IMG/VR virus record: IMGVR_UViG_3300024503_000516
Coordinates: 1-39,998 of that record
Strand: one strand, 5' to 3'
Source: a virus
DNA length: 39,998 nt
Positions 1 through 39,998 of the stretch are shown here, piece by piece. Within the stretch, counting starts at the first letter, position 1, and each line of letters begins with the position of its first letter. The notes under the pieces are model-generated. The model ran no database searches. It worked only from the letters and a program-made list of their open reading frames with translations, and was not told where the DNA came from. The translations under genes and the position numbers were made by a program.

Positions 1-110
1 TGGCCTCTTGGTTTAATGTCAACTCGCCGTATTTAATGTTCGGCGTTACCTGAAAATTGAACGGCTTATCAGGCGTAAAACGCACATCATTCGTCAGCGG
101 TTTAGTGCCT
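1..110. repeat. Terminal redundancy, left copy
   Basis: Bases 1-110 are identical to bases 39889-39998. Both copies code for the same part of the endolysin and the frame is continuous across the join. This indicates a circular assembly (circular or circularly permuted genome) rather than a biological terminal repeat. Confidence 0.95.
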
Positions 111-715
111 TTGAGGAACAGATCAAGCTCATCACGCCGACGGCGTACCAAGCCTTCCAGCACCTTGCCGCCACCTTTGTTCCACCTCGGCAGCTCTTCC
201 ATCGCCACCTTTTGCGCATTTTCGCCATTGTTTAGCCGCTTACGCAGCGTGCTATCCATCAATGCACCAGTGCCAACATTGAACGTAAAGCTGATCAATG
301 CGCAACGCTGATTGTCTGTTAGCGGCACACGGATCTGTGAATCAACAGCACTGGCAAAACGCTCAACATCAGACAGAAGCAACGCCTCAGCATCAGCTTC
401 CGTGATCTTCATTCCTTCCTTCACAGTTGGCCCGGTATGGCCATAACCAACAGTCGGTACGCCAGCCGGACAGATATAACCTTCAAGCCGCAGACCTTCC
501 CATTTTTTGATCAGATCAAGCGCAGGCTGCAGATTATTTTCCTCTTGCTTGCCAGATTGGCTCCAGGTCTTGAACCACGCCTGATCACGACCAAGGATGT
601 GCGGATTGGCCTTGTTAATCGCCTCCTCAAGCTCACTGACAGCAGCCATTTGATGTGGCAGGCCAGCCTTGTAAAACCGAAACAGATCAATCAGGCGAAT
701 CTGATTTTGCGTCAT
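1..715 (-). CDS. Endolysin: GH24 lysozyme fused to M15 peptidase (N-terminal part)
   Basis: The reading frame is open from an ATG at 715-713 leftward to base 1. It continues without a stop into the copy at the right end of the window, giving 351 residues in the circular genome. An SD-like GGAG lies just before the ATG. Residues 65-205 form a T4/P21-type lysozyme (GH24) domain with a KKWEG start, a GYGHT block and an E73-x8-C82-x5-T88 triad, so Cys replaces the usual Asp. GH24 enzymes cleave the glycan backbone of peptidoglycan. Residues 215-351 form the peptidase domain described in the right-end entry. The first 60 residues match nothing I recognise and contain no signal peptide, so export probably needs a holin. 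The start overlaps the end of the preceding 93-residue gene. Confidence 0.9.
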   Translation of the reverse strand, partial: MTQNQIRLIDLFRFYKAGLPHQMAAVSELEEAINKANPHILGRDQAWFKTWSQSGKQEENNLQPALDLIKKWEGLRLEGYICPAGVPTVGYGHTGPTVKEGMKITEADAEALLLSDVERFASAVDSQIRVPLTDNQRCALISFTFNVGTGALMDSTLRKRLNNGENAQKVAMEELPRWNKGGGKVLEGLVRRRRDELDLFLKGTKPLTNDVRFTPDKPFNFQVTPNIKYGELTLNQEA

Positions 716-968
716 TGCTCCAAGGGGCGTGAATGCTCATGGCGCCACCAAGTAAGCGGCTGTCACCAGTCTGCAGCGTATCGTCAATTTCGTGGTGCAC
801 AACAACAGGCTTCGACTCCTCTGGCTGCGCCTGATGCCACCTTTGCTCTTCACGGTCTAAGCGCGGCTTGAGCGTCTTCTCAAATTTGTAATCCTGGGCC
901 CAACGACGTAGGTGATGCCGCCAGTCCTTATCGCCAAACCGCGTTAGCCATACCGTATCGGCGTTCAA
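687..968 (-). CDS. Hypothetical protein in lysis cassette (93 aa)
   Basis: The only upstream start options are non-ATG. A TTG at 968-966 overlaps the TGA of the upstream 45-residue gene as TTGA, which suggests translational coupling. The product is hydrophilic and rich in Trp, Arg and Asp near the N-terminus, with no membrane segment or motif I recognise. The 3' end overlaps the endolysin start by 29 bases. Its place between two membrane proteins and the endolysin hints at a lysis role, but nothing in the sequence shows one. Confidence 0.5.
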   Translation of the reverse strand: MNADTVWLTRFGDKDWRHHLRRWAQDYKFEKTLKPRLDREEQRWHQAQPEESKPVVVHHEIDDTLQTGDSRLLGGAMSIHAPWSNDAKSDSPD

Positions 969-1102
969 CGCTTTGGGAACAGCACTTTCAGAGCCTTAAG
1001 GATTAGTTGAATCCAGCTATTTTCCTTGATCGGCAACAGGCTGATGATCTCAGAGCCGGCAGCAATGATGATTGCGATAACGGCAGCGGTGGTGGGATCC
1101 AT
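965..1102 (-). CDS. Small membrane protein, candidate holin (45 aa)
   Basis: ATG at 1102-1100, TGA at 967-965. Residues 5-25 form a strongly hydrophobic segment rich in Ile and Ala, followed by an amphipathic Leu/Lys stretch ending in KR. It lies immediately upstream of the TTG-started gene and the endolysin, so a holin-type or other lysis role is reasonable. A single membrane segment with a positive tail fits a class III holin or a pinholin. Family membership was not established. Confidence 0.6.
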   Translation of the reverse strand: MDPTTAAVIAIIIAAGSEIISLLPIKENSWIQLILKALKVLFPKR

Positions 1103-1134: not shown

Positions 1135-1386
1135 TTATTTGTGCCTGCCAACCGTCATCTCAATTTGCCTAACCCTTCCTTCAAGATCAGCTAACCGTTC
1201 CTTGCTGTCGTTTTTGAGTTCTTGTATGTCGGCCACTACTGTGTTGACCGATTGATCAAGCTTGGCGACCTGCATAAAAAGACCGCCCAACCCTAAAACC
1301 GCTGCGGTCAAAAGAGCTGGAACGGCTTGATTAAACGGATTTGGTGGTTCAGGCGATGCCGTGTATGCCTCTTCGTGGTTGTCCAT
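1135..1386 (-). CDS. Membrane-anchored coiled-coil protein, putative spanin or holin (83 aa)
   Basis: The N-terminal 20 residues are polar and Pro-rich. Residues 21-42 form one transmembrane helix, and residues 43-80 form a charged coiled coil with a heptad pattern. This architecture fits an inner-membrane spanin (Rz-like) or an XhlA-type lysis protein. It is the first gene of the lysis group, upstream of the 45-residue membrane protein and the endolysin. I saw no lipobox partner protein, so the spanin idea is not confirmed. Confidence 0.6.
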   Translation of the reverse strand: MDNHEEAYTASPEPPNPFNQAVPALLTAAVLGLGGLFMQVAKLDQSVNTVVADIQELKNDSKERLADLEGRVRQIEMTVGRHK

Positions 1387-1494: not shown

Positions 1495-2082
1495 GTGGCC
1501 ACAACGCGCAGCATCAAACCATTACCACCGTTAGCCGATTTGCAGGAGTGGTTCGCTATTGAAGGCCCCGATCTTGTTTGGCGCACAAATTACTTCCCGG
1601 ATTTAATCGGTAAAAGAGCTGGCTACAGGCGTAAAGATGGTTACATCGAAGTCAAAAAACACAAGCACAAAATGTTGGCCCATAGAGTCGCGTATTACTT
1701 GGGAACCCAGCAAGATCCGCAAAATTATTTCATTGACCATATAGACGGAAATCCTTCCAACAATTCACCTGAAAATTTGCGCTTGGCTACTCATATGCAA
1801 AACATGCGCAACTGTAGAAGAATTCGCAGAAACAATACATCTGGCCAGCAGGGTATAACTCGTGCCGTAATTGGTGGCATTGAATACTGGAAGGCTTATG
1901 TAGTCCTCAAGGGAAAAGGTTTGCATTTGGGCTCTTATGCAACAAAAGAGGCCGCTATTGCGGCCCGAGAAGTGGCTGAAAAATTTTTGTACGGGAAATT
2001 TGCTCCTATCGCCCTTGACCACGAAGAGGTTTTTTCCCTCTTTTCCGAGGACGAGAGTTTTGACCATAGCCATCTTTCGTAG
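1495..2082 (+). CDS. HNH homing endonuclease with AP2 domain (195 aa)
   Basis: GTG start. Residues 60-105 carry an HNH core (H63 in the AHRVAYYLG block, D81-H82 in IDHIDGN, N94 in PENLRLAT). Residues 115-167 form an AP2-type DNA-binding domain (GITR, W132, LGSYATKEAA, AREVAEKFLYG). HNH-AP2 proteins are free-standing homing nucleases that nick DNA and spread their own gene. It is transcribed against the surrounding late genes. Its last 77 bases overlap the 3' end of the 45-residue basic gene on the other strand, and the final residues after the AP2 domain look like read-through into that antisense sequence. Confidence 0.9.
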   Translation: MATTRSIKPLPPLADLQEWFAIEGPDLVWRTNYFPDLIGKRAGYRRKDGYIEVKKHKHKMLAHRVAYYLGTQQDPQNYFIDHIDGNPSNNSPENLRLATHMQNMRNCRRIRRNNTSGQQGITRAVIGGIEYWKAYVVLKGKGLHLGSYATKEAAIAAREVAEKFLYGKFAPIALDHEEVFSLFSEDESFDHSHLS

Positions 2083-2250: not shown

Positions 2251-2552
2251 GGGACACCGGCGGCTTTGGTTGGATTGCGTTGCTCATCAATTTGAGCTTG
2301 TAGTGCGCCTTCAATTTCGGCAACTTTTTCGTTGCCGCCGAGGGCTTCCTTGACCCAGCCGATCACCAGCTCTTCGGTGAGATCAGCAAAAGGGATCAAC
2401 TCACCCTCGGGGCGCTCAAAACCCAACGAGCCATAGGCACCAGCTTTGTAGGTGCCGTCATTGGCATCAACGGTGTAGTGAGCAGTGAACACGTAGCCGT
2501 CGCTGGTTTCACGCTCCAGCTGCGCAATCTTCCAAGTAAAGGTGGTGGCCAT
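2238..2552 (-). CDS. Conserved phage protein, DUF7936-like (104 aa)
   Basis: Begins MATTFTWKI and continues as a beta-rich domain with a hydrophobic repeat (YVFTAHYTVDA) and an acidic helix near residue 65. I associate this pattern with a small family (DUF7936) found in phages of marine and freshwater bacteria; that assignment is from memory. It follows the fibre genes in the late unit. Its role is unknown; a small structural or fibre accessory protein is possible. Confidence 0.75.
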   Translation of the reverse strand: MATTFTWKIAQLERETSDGYVFTAHYTVDANDGTYKAGAYGSLGFERPEGELIPFADLTEELVIGWVKEALGGNEKVAEIEGALQAQIDEQRNPTKAAGVPWAS

Positions 2553-2615
2553 GAGTGATGTGGCGATGGTTAAAGCTAAAGGTTGTGCAACCTGTTGAGT
2601 AGGCCGGTTGCCCGC

Positions 2616-2668
2616 CTAGTGACGTGGACTAGGAACTCCTAATTAGGAGGAAACTAGGAGGTGGCTAG
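2616..2668. repeat. Palindrome flanked by four CTAG sites
   Basis: A perfect 14-bp palindrome CTCCTAATTAGGAG (2636-2649) is flanked nearly symmetrically by CTAGTG and CTAGGA on the left (2616, 2629) and CTAGGA and CTAGTG on the right (2654, 2665). It lies just after the stop of the S74 fibre gene and upstream of the DUF7936-like gene. The arrangement resembles an operator or a recombination/processing site more than a terminator, because no T-run follows on either strand. Confidence 0.6.
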
Positions 2669-17732: not shown

Positions 17733-17986
17733 CAGATTTTGTAGGCGATGCAGGCGCCGTTTGTAAGTTTGATACTGGTGAAATAACCAGTCAGGTGAGC
17801 ACCGGAATCAATGGCAGCACCGGCAAAATTATTGTCGATCACGTTGGTCGAAATGATCGCGTCAACCGTGCTGTTTTCGTAGAAGTCGATATGACTAAAC
17901 CTGCCGGTATGGGCAACAGTGTCGGTAATCACCTCGGCGCCAACCGCGTAGTCAACAACAGATGCGCCGCCCCGTGCTTTTGCCAT
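17732..17986 (-). CDS. IAYKI-ending paralogue 3 of 3 (84 aa)
   Basis: Last of three tandem related genes. It shares the pattern Y-x-[VI]-G-[A]-E near residue 15, DTVAHTGRF, and a GYFTSIKLTNG...IAYKI end with its two neighbours. Predicted as a compact beta-domain. The ends match those of the others, with only two bases between this start and the previous stop. The function is unknown; a decoration or neck fibre protein is possible from its place among head-tail genes. Confidence 0.8.
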   Translation of the reverse strand: MAKARGGASVVDYAVGAEVITDTVAHTGRFSHIDFYENSTVDAIISTNVIDNNFAGAAIDSGAHLTGYFTSIKLTNGACIAYKI

Positions 17987-17988
17987 GA

Positions 17989-18243
17989 TCAGATCTTGTA
18001 GGCAATGACAGCGCCAGCCGAAGCCAGCGTAAACGCGGTAAAGACGCCTTGCAGTTCAAACCCAGCCGGGAACGATTCACCAACCAAAGTATTGCCCGTG
18101 TAGTTCTGCGCTGTGATGGCAGTGAACGACGTATTGTTTTTGGCGATCACGATGCGATCCCACCGGCCAGTCTTTGCCGCAGTGGTATTCACAAAGTCGG
18201 CACCGATGCTGTAGCTCGGATCAATGCTGTTGGTGTTGGCCAT
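17989..18243 (-). CDS. IAYKI-ending paralogue 2 of 3 (84 aa)
   Basis: Shares YSIGADFVNTTAAKTGRW and FTAFTLASAGAVIAYKI with its neighbours, about the same length and clearly the same fold. The middle portion is the most diverged part, as in proteins with a conserved frame and variable loops. Two-base spacing on each side supports one transcript and coupled translation. No function is recognised. Confidence 0.8.
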   Translation of the reverse strand: MANTNSIDPSYSIGADFVNTTAAKTGRWDRIVIAKNNTSFTAITAQNYTGNTLVGESFPAGFELQGVFTAFTLASAGAVIAYKI

Positions 18244-18245
18244 GA

Positions 18246-18488
18246 TCAGATCTTGTAGGCGACAATCTTGCCGGATGCCAGTGTCACACTGGTGAATACG
18301 CCTTCAATGCTGTCGCCTGCGGTAAGAGGCACAGAGGTGAAGGTATTGCCGCTGGCGTTCTGCACAGTGGCTGTACTGATCACGGCATCGGCCAAGGCAT
18401 ACAGCTTGTAAAACCGGCCGGTGTGAGCAGCAGTATCACTGATGTACTCAAAACCAATGTTGTAGGAGTCGCTATCGGCCATGTTCAA
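18246..18488 (-). CDS. IAYKI-ending paralogue 1 of 3 (80 aa)
   Basis: First of the tandem set: YNIGFEYISDTAAHTGRF, then GNTFTSVPLTAGDSIEGVFT and a KIVAYKI end. The ATG overlaps the stop of the connector gene by four bases. The GN-T-F and FTS..LASG motifs are shared with the second copy, showing ancient tandem duplication with strong divergence. Possibly a small structural protein exposed at the neck or on the capsid; no proof in the sequence. Confidence 0.8.
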   Translation of the reverse strand: MNMADSDSYNIGFEYISDTAAHTGRFYKLYALADAVISTATVQNASGNTFTSVPLTAGDSIEGVFTSVTLASGKIVAYKI

Positions 18489-25826: not shown

Positions 25827-26018
25827 TTAACCGTGGTCTTCGGCGGTTTGAATTTCTTCGTCTAGAGCGTCACCAGCTTCGTCAAACCCTTCGTCGTAGA
25901 GCCACTGTTGAACAGCGGTGAGCATGGCAGCGGCGGCGAGGTTGAATTCGTAATCGCCGTCGGAATCAACGGCGGAGTCAAAGGCGCCTTGAAGATCGTG
26001 CCAAAGGTGCTTTGCCAT
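25827..26018 (-). CDS. Small acidic protein (63 aa)
   Basis: Starts MAKHLWHDLQGAFDSAVDSD and ends DALDEEIQTAEDHG; strongly acidic and helical with aromatic residues. It lies between two late genes, downstream of a terminator, and so would need its own promoter or read-through. No family recognised. The small size and acidity are compatible with an inhibitor or a chaperone for a basic partner, which is only speculation. Confidence 0.6.
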   Translation of the reverse strand: MAKHLWHDLQGAFDSAVDSDGDYEFNLAAAAMLTAVQQWLYDEGFDEAGDALDEEIQTAEDHG

Positions 26019-26052
26019 GGTGATATTTCGGCGGCCTTACGTTAGCGGCAAA

Positions 26053-27752: not shown

Positions 27753-28072
27753 GCAATCAGCTTGGCCAATTTGGCCATCGTATTGATGCAACCAAGGGCA
27801 ATATGTAGCTGACCAGCCTTGCGGGCTTCCATGTGGAGCGTGCTGGTTTGACTCAGCAAATCTGCCAGCATTTGCGTGGTGTCGTGCGCCCAGTCTTCCC
27901 TTATTTGTTGACGGGCAAGGTTGATGTATTTATCAACGCTGCGCTCCGAAACCCCCCACGTCTCTGCCGCATAACGAACGCAATCGGAGCGTTTACCACC
28001 GCTTGCAATGATGCGAGCAAGGCGACTAGCGCGGTATTGAGTTTCGGCCCTGGTACTACCTTTGGCAGGCAT
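27749..28072 (-). CDS. terS: Terminase small subunit (107 aa)
   Basis: Starts MPAKGSTRAETQYRASRLAR and carries a helix-turn-helix-like segment (RSDCVRYAAETWGVSERSVD) followed by a long helix, the usual layout for DNA-recognising small terminases. It is directly followed by the large subunit with a GTGA overlap. Its start shares a base with the end of the methyltransferase gene. Confidence 0.8.
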   Translation of the reverse strand: MPAKGSTRAETQYRASRLARIIASGGKRSDCVRYAAETWGVSERSVDKYINLARQQIREDWAHDTTQMLADLLSQTSTLHMEARKAGQLHIALGCINTMAKLAKLIA

Positions 28073-29319
28073 CAGATCTCATCCCCAGCGTCGTTGAAGT
28101 GGGTTTCGGAGGGGATACAGACGGCAGTATTGCCAGTAAAGTCTTCCCAACGCTTGACGATCACGTCGCAGTAGGCGGGGTCCAGTTCCATCATGCGGCA
28201 GTGGCGGTTAGTTTTTTCGCAGGCGATGAGTGTGGTGCCTGAGCCACCAAAGATGTCAAGAACCAACTTGCATTGATGATTCTGTATTGCAACTATTGCT
28301 AGGTCTACTGGCTTTTGTGTTGGATGAATGGTTCTAGCGTCATCATCTGGCGTCATTGGATGATTTGGGACCGTGGCTGGCCATACAGTTGTTTGCTTTT
28401 TGTCGCCAGCCCAAATGTGCGACGCTCCTTTCTTTACTGCATACCAAGCGCATTCATGCTGCCAGTTATAGTCTTGTCTTGACATAATGCCAAAAGGCTT
28501 CATCCAGACTATTTGCTGCTTTACTTCATAGCCAGCAGACGTAAGGCCATCAAACACAAGCCCTGCAAATCGATGGTCGTGCCAAACGTATGCAACGTCA
28601 GCATTCATTAAGGCAAAGGCGTCTTTCCAATCTGCAATGTGATCGTTGGCAACTTTGTGGTCAGTAGAGCCACCAAAATACTTGGAGCCAGCTTTGCGCC
28701 ATGATTCGTCGTATTGGATTCCGTAAGGCGGGTCAGTAAAAACCATGTCGGCCTTTTGCCCATCCATCAGCCGTTCAACGTGCTGCGGGTTTGTGCTGTC
28801 ACCGCAGAGAAGGCGGTGATTGCCGAGGATCCATAGGTCACCGGGCTTGGTGGTTGGCTCAGCAGGGGGCTCAGGGGCGTCGTCGGGGTCGGTGTTGCCT
28901 TCTACGGGATCTAGCCGCTCAACCTGCTCAAGGAGGGCTTCAACGTCGTGGTCGTCAAACCAGGGGCTGATGTCGTGCTCCTTACTGAGCTGCTGCAGCA
29001 TTTCCGCGTCCCATTCGGCTAGGTCAGCGGTGCGGTTGTCGGCGAGGGCTAAGCCGACTTTTTGATCCTCGGTCAGGCCGGTACGGCGGACGGCAATGAT
29101 TTCGTCGGGGCTGGCGTCAACGATGCGGAGCCCTTCGATGCCGAGGTTGAGTGCGGCTTCAACGGTGCCATTGCCGGCAAGGATGCGGTCGTCTTCGTCA
29201 ATGACGATGGAGCGTGCGGGACCGTAACGCTGCAGGGATTCCTTGAGGAGGGACGCGGAGGTTTCAGTGCGCTTGCGAGCGTTTTTGTGATCTTGTTTTA
29301 GGTCCGACAGCGTAGCCAT
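28072..29319 (-). CDS. ParB-like domain fused to beta-class DNA methyltransferase (415 aa)
   Basis: Preferred start at the ATG 29319, because MATLSDLKQDHKNARKRTET begins the ParB-N domain (residues 1-130). The frame stays open to a start at 29394. The methylase domain follows: DPPYGI (196-201) comes before FGGSGT (357-362), the order of beta-class N4/N6 amino-methyltransferases. Such fusions are frequent in phages and may protect DNA from host restriction or mark packaging sites. It lies first in the leftward late block. Confidence 0.9.
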   Translation of the reverse strand: MATLSDLKQDHKNARKRTETSASLLKESLQRYGPARSIVIDEDDRILAGNGTVEAALNLGIEGLRIVDASPDEIIAVRRTGLTEDQKVGLALADNRTADLAEWDAEMLQQLSKEHDISPWFDDHDVEALLEQVERLDPVEGNTDPDDAPEPPAEPTTKPGDLWILGNHRLLCGDSTNPQHVERLMDGQKADMVFTDPPYGIQYDESWRKAGSKYFGGSTDHKVANDHIADWKDAFALMNADVAYVWHDHRFAGLVFDGLTSAGYEVKQQIVWMKPFGIMSRQDYNWQHECAWYAVKKGASHIWAGDKKQTTVWPATVPNHPMTPDDDARTIHPTQKPVDLAIVAIQNHQCKLVLDIFGGSGTTLIACEKTNRHCRMMELDPAYCDVIVKRWEDFTGNTAVCIPSETHFNDAGDEI

Positions 29320-29488
29320 CGTTAATTGAGGTATTGCGCGAAGGATACCGCGATGTTGAAAGTTTAGCCGAAAAACTGTCGCAGGCTGGGACAAGCGGGA
29401 CGCTATCGAGCCTGCGGAAAACCCACCTTTAGAAATCCTGAAATGTGCCGTAGCGCACCTGTCGGGCCGATTTTTTATGGCTAATCTC

Positions 29489-38995: not shown

Positions 38996-39547
38996 CTAGG
39001 GAGTTACAACAACGGAACCCTTAAATGTTTCCCAAGATGGCATGACGGTTGTATGACCGTTGTAATGACCAATCTCGGCATAGGACCGCTCAGGGTTGTC
39101 AGAAAGTGGCATGAAGAACATTTGACCAATTAGCAGACCAGGCCACAAGGCAACCTTGTGTTTCAGGCGTACATTTTTAAGCTCAAGCGTCAGCCTGCTG
39201 CCGTGCCACCCAGGATCACAAAATCCGGCCAGCATGTGCTGAATGCCAGAACGAGCGCGGCTTGATTTCAGTACAAACTGCGCAGCAATCGCCGGATCAT
39301 CGGGAAGGTTGAAGATCTCTTCCGTTTCGGCAAGGATGAATTCACCTGGCTGCAGCCAATACGGATCTTCCTTGGTATGGCCGGCAATGCTGTGCCTGAT
39401 CAGCTCTGGTGTTTCCGCTACCTCAAGCATGATGTTGTCACCCAAGGCCACGTCATAGCTAGCCGGGTTAAGGCGCTCAGGATCAAACGGATGAATCAGC
39501 GCATGGCTTTGGCACAGTGCGCGAATCTCCGAATCAGGCAGCAGCAT
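38996..39547 (-). CDS. dcd: dCTP deaminase (183 aa)
   Basis: Family motifs: LNPASYDVALGDN, then KSSRARSGIQHMLAGF, DPGWHGSRLTLELKN with the catalytic Glu at 122, and GLLIGQMFF. The enzyme turns dCTP into dUTP, feeding dTTP synthesis. The presence of Glu122 favours the deaminase over a plain dUTPase, but a bifunctional form cannot be excluded. It follows the endolysin with no gap (TGA-ATG), an unusual place for a nucleotide enzyme. Confidence 0.88.
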   Translation of the reverse strand: MLLPDSEIRALCQSHALIHPFDPERLNPASYDVALGDNIMLEVAETPELIRHSIAGHTKEDPYWLQPGEFILAETEEIFNLPDDPAIAAQFVLKSSRARSGIQHMLAGFCDPGWHGSRLTLELKNVRLKHKVALWPGLLIGQMFFMPLSDNPERSYAEIGHYNGHTTVMPSWETFKGSVVVTP

Positions 39548-39998
39548 TCAGGCTCCGTAGTTCCAGCGGACTCTAGGACGTCCTGGCCGAATTCCAAGAT
39601 GGATAAATGAGGGCGCACCATATCCAAGCGAATATGGCCAGTGAGCATCAGCCCAATTCTGCAGCTCATAGGTGTTCACGCCTTCGATAAACCAATCAAT
39701 CGCGCCCGTATCTGCTGCGTCGTACAAATGCTCCGACCTGGCAGATCCGCCAACTTCAGCGTTGATCTTCGCTGGCCTGTAGCCGCTTGTAATTACTACT
39801 GGCTTGTTGCCAAACGCCGTACGTGCACGCTCAGCAAACTGGCAAAGCATCAGCGCCGTATCGCATTGATATTGCTTATTAAATCTTCTGGCCTCTTGGT
39901 TTAATGTCAACTCGCCGTATTTAATGTTCGGCGTTACCTGAAAATTGAACGGCTTATCAGGCGTAAAACGCACATCATTCGTCAGCGGTTTAGTGCCT
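39548..39998 (-). CDS. Endolysin C-terminal part: M15 peptidase domain
   Basis: Continuation of the gene entering from the left end; the last 110 bases here duplicate 1-110. Residues 215-351 of the full protein form an M15-type peptidase: SGYRPAKINAEVGGSARSEH contains H292, then D298 (HLYDAAD) and H335 (FIHLGIRP), the zinc ligands in the H-x5-D...H pattern. M15 enzymes cleave the peptide part of peptidoglycan. The stop is followed immediately by the dCTP deaminase start. A GTG at 39973 could be mistaken for a start, but the frame stays open across the join. Confidence 0.9.
   Translation of the reverse strand, partial: GTKPLTNDVRFTPDKPFNFQVTPNIKYGELTLNQEARRFNKQYQCDTALMLCQFAERARTAFGNKPVVITSGYRPAKINAEVGGSARSEHLYDAADTGAIDWFIEGVNTYELQNWADAHWPYSLGYGAPSFIHLGIRPGRPRVRWNYGA
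39889..39998. repeat. Terminal redundancy, right copy
   Basis: Identical to bases 1-110. Removing one copy gives a circular sequence of 39,888 bp with intact genes across the join. Confidence 0.95.

Follow-up and report, generated by a model that had tools for sequence, protein, structure and literature searches.

The two ends of this viral contig raise the question of whether they hold one intact endolysin gene and, if so, what the parts of its product do. The window, by which we mean the whole stretch of DNA analysed, is a 39,998-b IMG/VR virus record and carries an exact 110-b terminal repeat of which it contains no further copy. Closing the circle at 39,888 b confirmed the proposal of the first-pass annotation that one 351-residue frame runs across the join on the minus strand, and all six residues it had named (E73, C82, T88, H292, D298 and H335) lie where it had placed them in the joined frame (Table 1). 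The gene had been located at 1-715; this holds for its 5' part, and the remainder is at the opposite end of the contig. Three related contigs (L003, L004 and L015) each contain one collinear block of about 2.9 kb through the join, with 90, 92 and 82% DNA identity, respectively, and L003 carries an intact 351-aa homologue in its interior that is 97% identical to the window endolysin. With such interior, collinear copies in relatives, the simplest reading of the repeat is that a genome assembled as a circle was left with overlapping ends. Neither a stop nor a frameshift interrupts the closed circle at the join, and as far as these relatives tell, both are excluded. One could still argue that the joined frame was created by the closing of the contig ends. 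We consider this vanishingly improbable and rejected it, because independent contigs have the identical arrangement inside and are collinear over the join, and because the 110-b overlap is both exact and unique. We conclude that the endolysin gene is intact across the join.

It had also been expected that gene calling on the linear contig would yield two fragments or miss the lysozyme half. Two fragments do result, but the 238-aa product contains the entire lysozyme and the 149-aa product the entire M15 domain. Since each fragment keeps one entire domain, neither domain is hidden.

Both enzyme families that had been assigned to this protein are borne out by profile and structure comparisons. 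Residues 70-196 matched PF00959 with 154.9 bits (curated cut-off 22.3), residues 227-336 matched PF08291 with 55.5 bits (curated cut-off 23.2), and residues 4-349 aligned to positions 5-372 of the endolysin profile PHROG 28234 (E 2.6e-102). The joined protein does not stand letter for letter in the window, and the structure model was made for a 97% identical homologue (L048). This model resembled solved GH24 enzymes (Z 16.0, 3.0 Å, 135 aligned residues for 9KBS) and the zinc DD-peptidase 1LBU (Z 13.8, 2.8 Å, 123 residues). Its mean pLDDT of 76 is moderate: the M15 domain is good and the GH24 active-site lobe poor, with values below 50 at residues 75-83 and 85-103. We conclude that the protein contains a GH24 and an M15 domain; their catalytic activity and the bonds that they would cut, we infer from family membership.

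Table 1. Features of the endolysin locus in the window (strand "." for features without orientation; codons of minus-strand genes are given from high to low position).
Feature	Position	Strand	Remarks
Terminal repeat, left copy	1..110	.	identical to 39889-39998; relatives have a single copy at the join
Terminal repeat, right copy	39889..39998	.	
Endolysin gene, 5' part	1..715	-	ATG at 715; residues 1-238; open at contig edge
Endolysin gene, 3' part	39548..39998	-	residues 203-351 and stop TGA 39550-39548; the 110-b repeat is the overlap with the 5' part
LPHQ head module, residues 1-57	545..715	-	predicted helices 8-13, 20-36, 40-54
GH24 muramidase domain, residues 70-196	128..508	-	PF00959, E 1.6e-45; Z 16 against solved GH24
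GH24 triad codons	E73 499-497, C82 472-470, T88 454-452	-	
Peptidase_M15_3 domain, residues 227-336	39596..39925	-	PF08291, E 7.4e-15; Z 13.8 against 1LBU
Probable zinc ligand codons	H292 39730-39728, D303 39697-39695, H335 39601-39599	-	84/84 conserved
93-aa ORF with a 29-b overlap at the lysin start	687..968	-	matched in 95/279 loci
45-aa hydrophobic protein, holin candidate, upstream of lysin	965..1102	-	hydropathy maximum 2.28 over 19 aa
83-aa protein, one hydrophobic segment, charged C-terminal part	1135..1386	-	
dCTP deaminase gene, directly downstream, abutting the lysin stop	38996..39547	-	PHROG 1663, E 3.5e-44

The GH24 domain has the arrangement E-x8-[DC]-x5-T, with Cys in the middle position of the triad. 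Among 52 related GH24 domains this position is Cys in 26 and Asp in 23, indicating that C82 marks a subtype and is no defect. Fold and motif are shared with the GH24 endolysins of P22, P21 (R21) and Acinetobacter (AcLys, 6ET6) (PMC6024848), whereas the window lysin has Cys at their Asp position and carries a head and a peptidase domain in addition.

For the M15 domain, the zinc site that had been proposed needed to be revised. In an alignment of 84 sequences H292, D303 and H335 are invariant, whereas the D298 position is Asp in 29. HMMER, by opening a gap of one residue, did align D298, not D303, with Asp161, a zinc ligand in 1LBU; we nevertheless rejected D298 on conservation. The zinc site is most likely H292-D303-H335, with conservation as the basis for choosing the Asp. 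The domain shares its fold, the S-x-H motif, a conserved Arg and the third zinc His with the Streptomyces albus Zn DD-carboxypeptidase (1LBU, M15), but its His-Asp spacing is 11 (H292-D303) instead of 7, it has Gly at H335 plus 2, and no PG_binding_1 domain was found in the window lysin. It also differs from 1LBU in having no acid at H335 minus 3. No acidic residue was found at this position among the M15 relatives, so peptidase activity is a prediction; E231 and E291 are invariant among them.

The endolysin as such is ordinary, and its architecture is already known from the cyanophages S-CBS3 and S-LBS1 and from PHROG 28234. The endolysin/lysozyme of these two phages is homologous to the window protein at full length (44-46% identity over 98%), has the same order of head, GH24 and M15, and occupies an equivalent position in the genome, behind tail genes and small ORFs. 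The S-CBS3 triad has Asp where the window lysin has Cys. In the S-LBS1 lysozyme (L129:3483-4589, ATS93202.1) the GH24 profile matches only from about residue 108, and the stretch before this point is possibly frameshifted or mis-sequenced.

A description as a two-domain enzyme overlooks a third conserved module. The N-terminal ~55 residues (about 4-57), here called LPHQ, form a separate conserved unit in which L8, H21, Q22, A25 and L29 are each more than 90% conserved among 117 representatives. When predicted alone, the head folds into three helices with a mean pLDDT of 83.8. Its mean net charge is about zero, and the long form present in the window is homologous to a short form of about 44 aa (hhalign E 1e-10). 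The window contains no second copy. We found no credible match for the head sequence in Pfam, NCBIfam or PDB, and no match for its fold in PDB or BFVD. Because helical models of 58 residues give a fold search little power, and the second aligner compared only two chains, these results do not demonstrate a new fold, and a known wall-binding domain is possible. No description of LPHQ was found in the open-access literature, a scope outside which most subscription journals fall. A survey of cyanophage endolysins counted catalytic domains, and the excerpt considered here mentions no LPHQ-type head (PMC5017753). The head appears to be previously undescribed, non-catalytic and mobile.

An alternative account of the head would be a conserved N-terminal extension or linker with no role of its own on an ordinary two-domain endolysin, and PHROG 28234, S-CBS3 and S-LBS1 are indeed annotated as endolysin or lysozyme over their full length. 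The company that the head keeps argues otherwise. A search with the head residues alone returned 252 viral stretches encoding a relative, of which the best 80 were used; searches with two divergent versions of the head contributed the best 80 of 133 and the best 80 of 145, with contigs partly shared. These gave 195 unique complete proteins among the matches listed, whose counts are not abundances. Among them, 194 have a recognised wall-hydrolase domain by domain profile, and in the remaining protein the partner, left unclassified, aligns with the latter half of an endolysin PHROG. The architectures among these listed matches were module-GH73-C39 (64), module-GH73-M15 (45), module-GH24-M15 (41), module-GH19 (20), module-GH73 (5), module-C39 (5), GH73-module-C39 (3), module-GH24-C39 (3), module-M15 (3), module-GH24 (2), GH24-module-C39 (2), module-YkuD (1) and unclassified (1). 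The head is thus joined to six kinds of partner: GH24, GH73, GH19, M15, C39 and YkuD. Representative partners were confirmed by Pfam; for GH19, whose Pfam score fell short of the cut-off, the assignment rests on PHROG matches.

The position of the module varies as well. A profile search of 60 other virus records recovered second LPHQ copies, most of which lie in frames 207-258 aa long, and in a blind test 22 of 22 second copies fetched had LPHQ C-terminal to a GH24 domain. The isolate S-EIVl encodes both types of LPHQ protein. The module therefore occurs in N-terminal, internal and C-terminal positions, and among all proteins examined it is found only in wall hydrolases. Head and enzyme can also differ in how closely they are related: L060 and L073 are 93% identical in their head DNA and 55% identical over the 300 nt that follow, and further pairs show the same contrast, indicating that lysin domains have been swapped. 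We conclude that LPHQ is conserved, confined to wall hydrolases in the cases examined, and exchanged among them. Six kinds of partner, three positions and near-invariant residues in 117 representatives leave a passive extension improbable; mobility over partners and positions is not what such an extension would show.

Several arrangements of LPHQ genes deserve mention in their own right. Many cyanophage contigs encode a second LPHQ hydrolase about 6-20 kb from the endolysin, a candidate second endolysin or virion lysozyme; the 22 examined (L302:2729-3382 (-), L303:2449-3108 (-) and L304-L323) are all GH24-module proteins. In L269 two LPHQ genes adjoin, at 1776-1949 (+) and 2483-2620 (+), one with a YkuD-like partner and the other with GH24. 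Phage B23 (L141:1898-3160) has YkuD, the LPHQ module and GH19 in one fused protein.

Among isolated phages, those with LPHQ share one host genus. Four LPHQ variants searched by tblastn against 50,697 phage records identified 17 distinct phages, and all 17 infect Synechococcus. They include the siphoviruses S-CBS1, S-CBS2, S-CBS3, S-LBS1 and KBS-S-2A, the Autographiviridae P60, S-B28, S-CBP2 and S-SRP01, and the Kyanovirus B23, plus others; they represent at least three phage lineages and, as related phages, do not count as 17 independent events. The window TerL is closest to those of S-H1, KBS-S-2A and Prochlorococcus phages (54-58%; S-H1 and KBS-S-2A 58%), which supports a picocyanobacterial host. 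The source is probably a cyanosiphovirus, and the host genus would be Synechococcus or a similar picocyanobacterium. A scan of one genome collection with the LPHQ long form returned four contigs from MAGs of unrelated bacteria, each with the same lysin types. These contigs (L130, L131, L132 and L133), binned as Microbacteriaceae, Verrucomicrobiota, Hyphomonadaceae and Planctomycetota, respectively, encode typical LPHQ cyanophage lysins and are probably mis-binned phage sequence. On the strength of this one long-form scan we rejected a cellular origin of LPHQ.

What might such a head do? A plausible reading, to which we give about even credence, is that LPHQ is an undescribed binding domain specific for the picocyanobacterial wall, an exchangeable adaptor common to unrelated phage lineages that is joined to muramidases, glucosaminidases, GH19, M15 or C39 peptidases and L,D-transpeptidase-like domains. 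As sequence and fold searches matched the head to no known wall-binding domain, it is its association with lysins that argues for binding. Association with lysins cannot tell binding from regulation, and a short helical head that has a mean net charge of about zero and matched no known wall-binding domain might instead serve oligomerisation, autoinhibition or targeting to the holin or membrane, and bind no wall. We regard this as possible but rather unlikely. A module that changes both position and partner is better explained as a self-contained unit for binding than as a regulator dedicated to a single active site, and membrane targeting is unlikely for a head that has no hydrophobic segment (maximum hydropathy 0.58 over 19 aa). 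The same value led us to reject a SAR endolysin, as no N-terminal hydrophobic stretch is present.

The closest parallel in the literature is mycobacteriophage Lysin A, in which N-terminal, central and C-terminal domains have been mixed by recombination (Payne and Hatfull 2012, PMC3314691). Like the LPHQ lysins, Lysin A is a host-restricted family with domain mixing and with GH19 and C39-like parts. It differs in its domains and in the host wall; its binding domains are mostly C-terminal and its N-terminal domains are predicted peptidases (PMC3314691), whereas the shared LPHQ head has no recognised enzyme fold.

The genes around the lysin, which follows tail genes and small ORFs, offer candidates for the other parts of a lysis cassette. 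Of 279 related loci, 119 contain a match to the 45-aa hydrophobic protein, 109 of them on the lysin strand; the protein belongs to PHROG 22542, listed as of unknown function. The 83-aa protein had no PHROG match and is a possible member of the cassette. The 93-aa ORF is conserved upstream of many related lysins. Elsewhere in the window, a gene adjoining the terminase gene (28072-29394, -) combines a ParB-like N-terminal part with a DNA methyltransferase part (PHROG 498, E 7e-118). Within the structural region, a 25-b sequence recurs two or three times close to the starts of genes (17979-18003, 18236-18260 and 26011-26035; 100, 96 and 72%), perhaps by chance or perhaps as a regulatory site. Searches of the window for tRNAs and Rfam families found nothing.

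With wall binding as the preferred role of the head, the probable account of the whole, and in our judgement the best explanation, is a combinatorial endolysin whose head binds the picocyanobacterial wall or positions its enzymes on it. The lysin most likely waits in the cytoplasm, having neither export signal nor membrane anchor. Because it has no N-terminal hydrophobic segment, its release would depend on a holin, and the small upstream membrane protein may be the one that opens the inner membrane. The LPHQ head would then most likely anchor the protein to the host wall and position the fused enzymes, glycan strands would be cut by the GH24 domain and stem peptides or cross-links by the M15 zinc peptidase.

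Few studies have addressed cyanophage lysis proteins (PMC9096620), and the LPHQ head is the part of this lysin worth following up. Its wall-binding reading is directly testable with a single short recombinant protein. Should LPHQ prove to bind the wall, cyanophages would have in it an adaptor specific to Synechococcus and related hosts. This would explain why unrelated cyanophages have the heads of their lysins in common and not the enzymes, and LPHQ would provide a sequence marker in metagenomes for phages of Synechococcus-like hosts.
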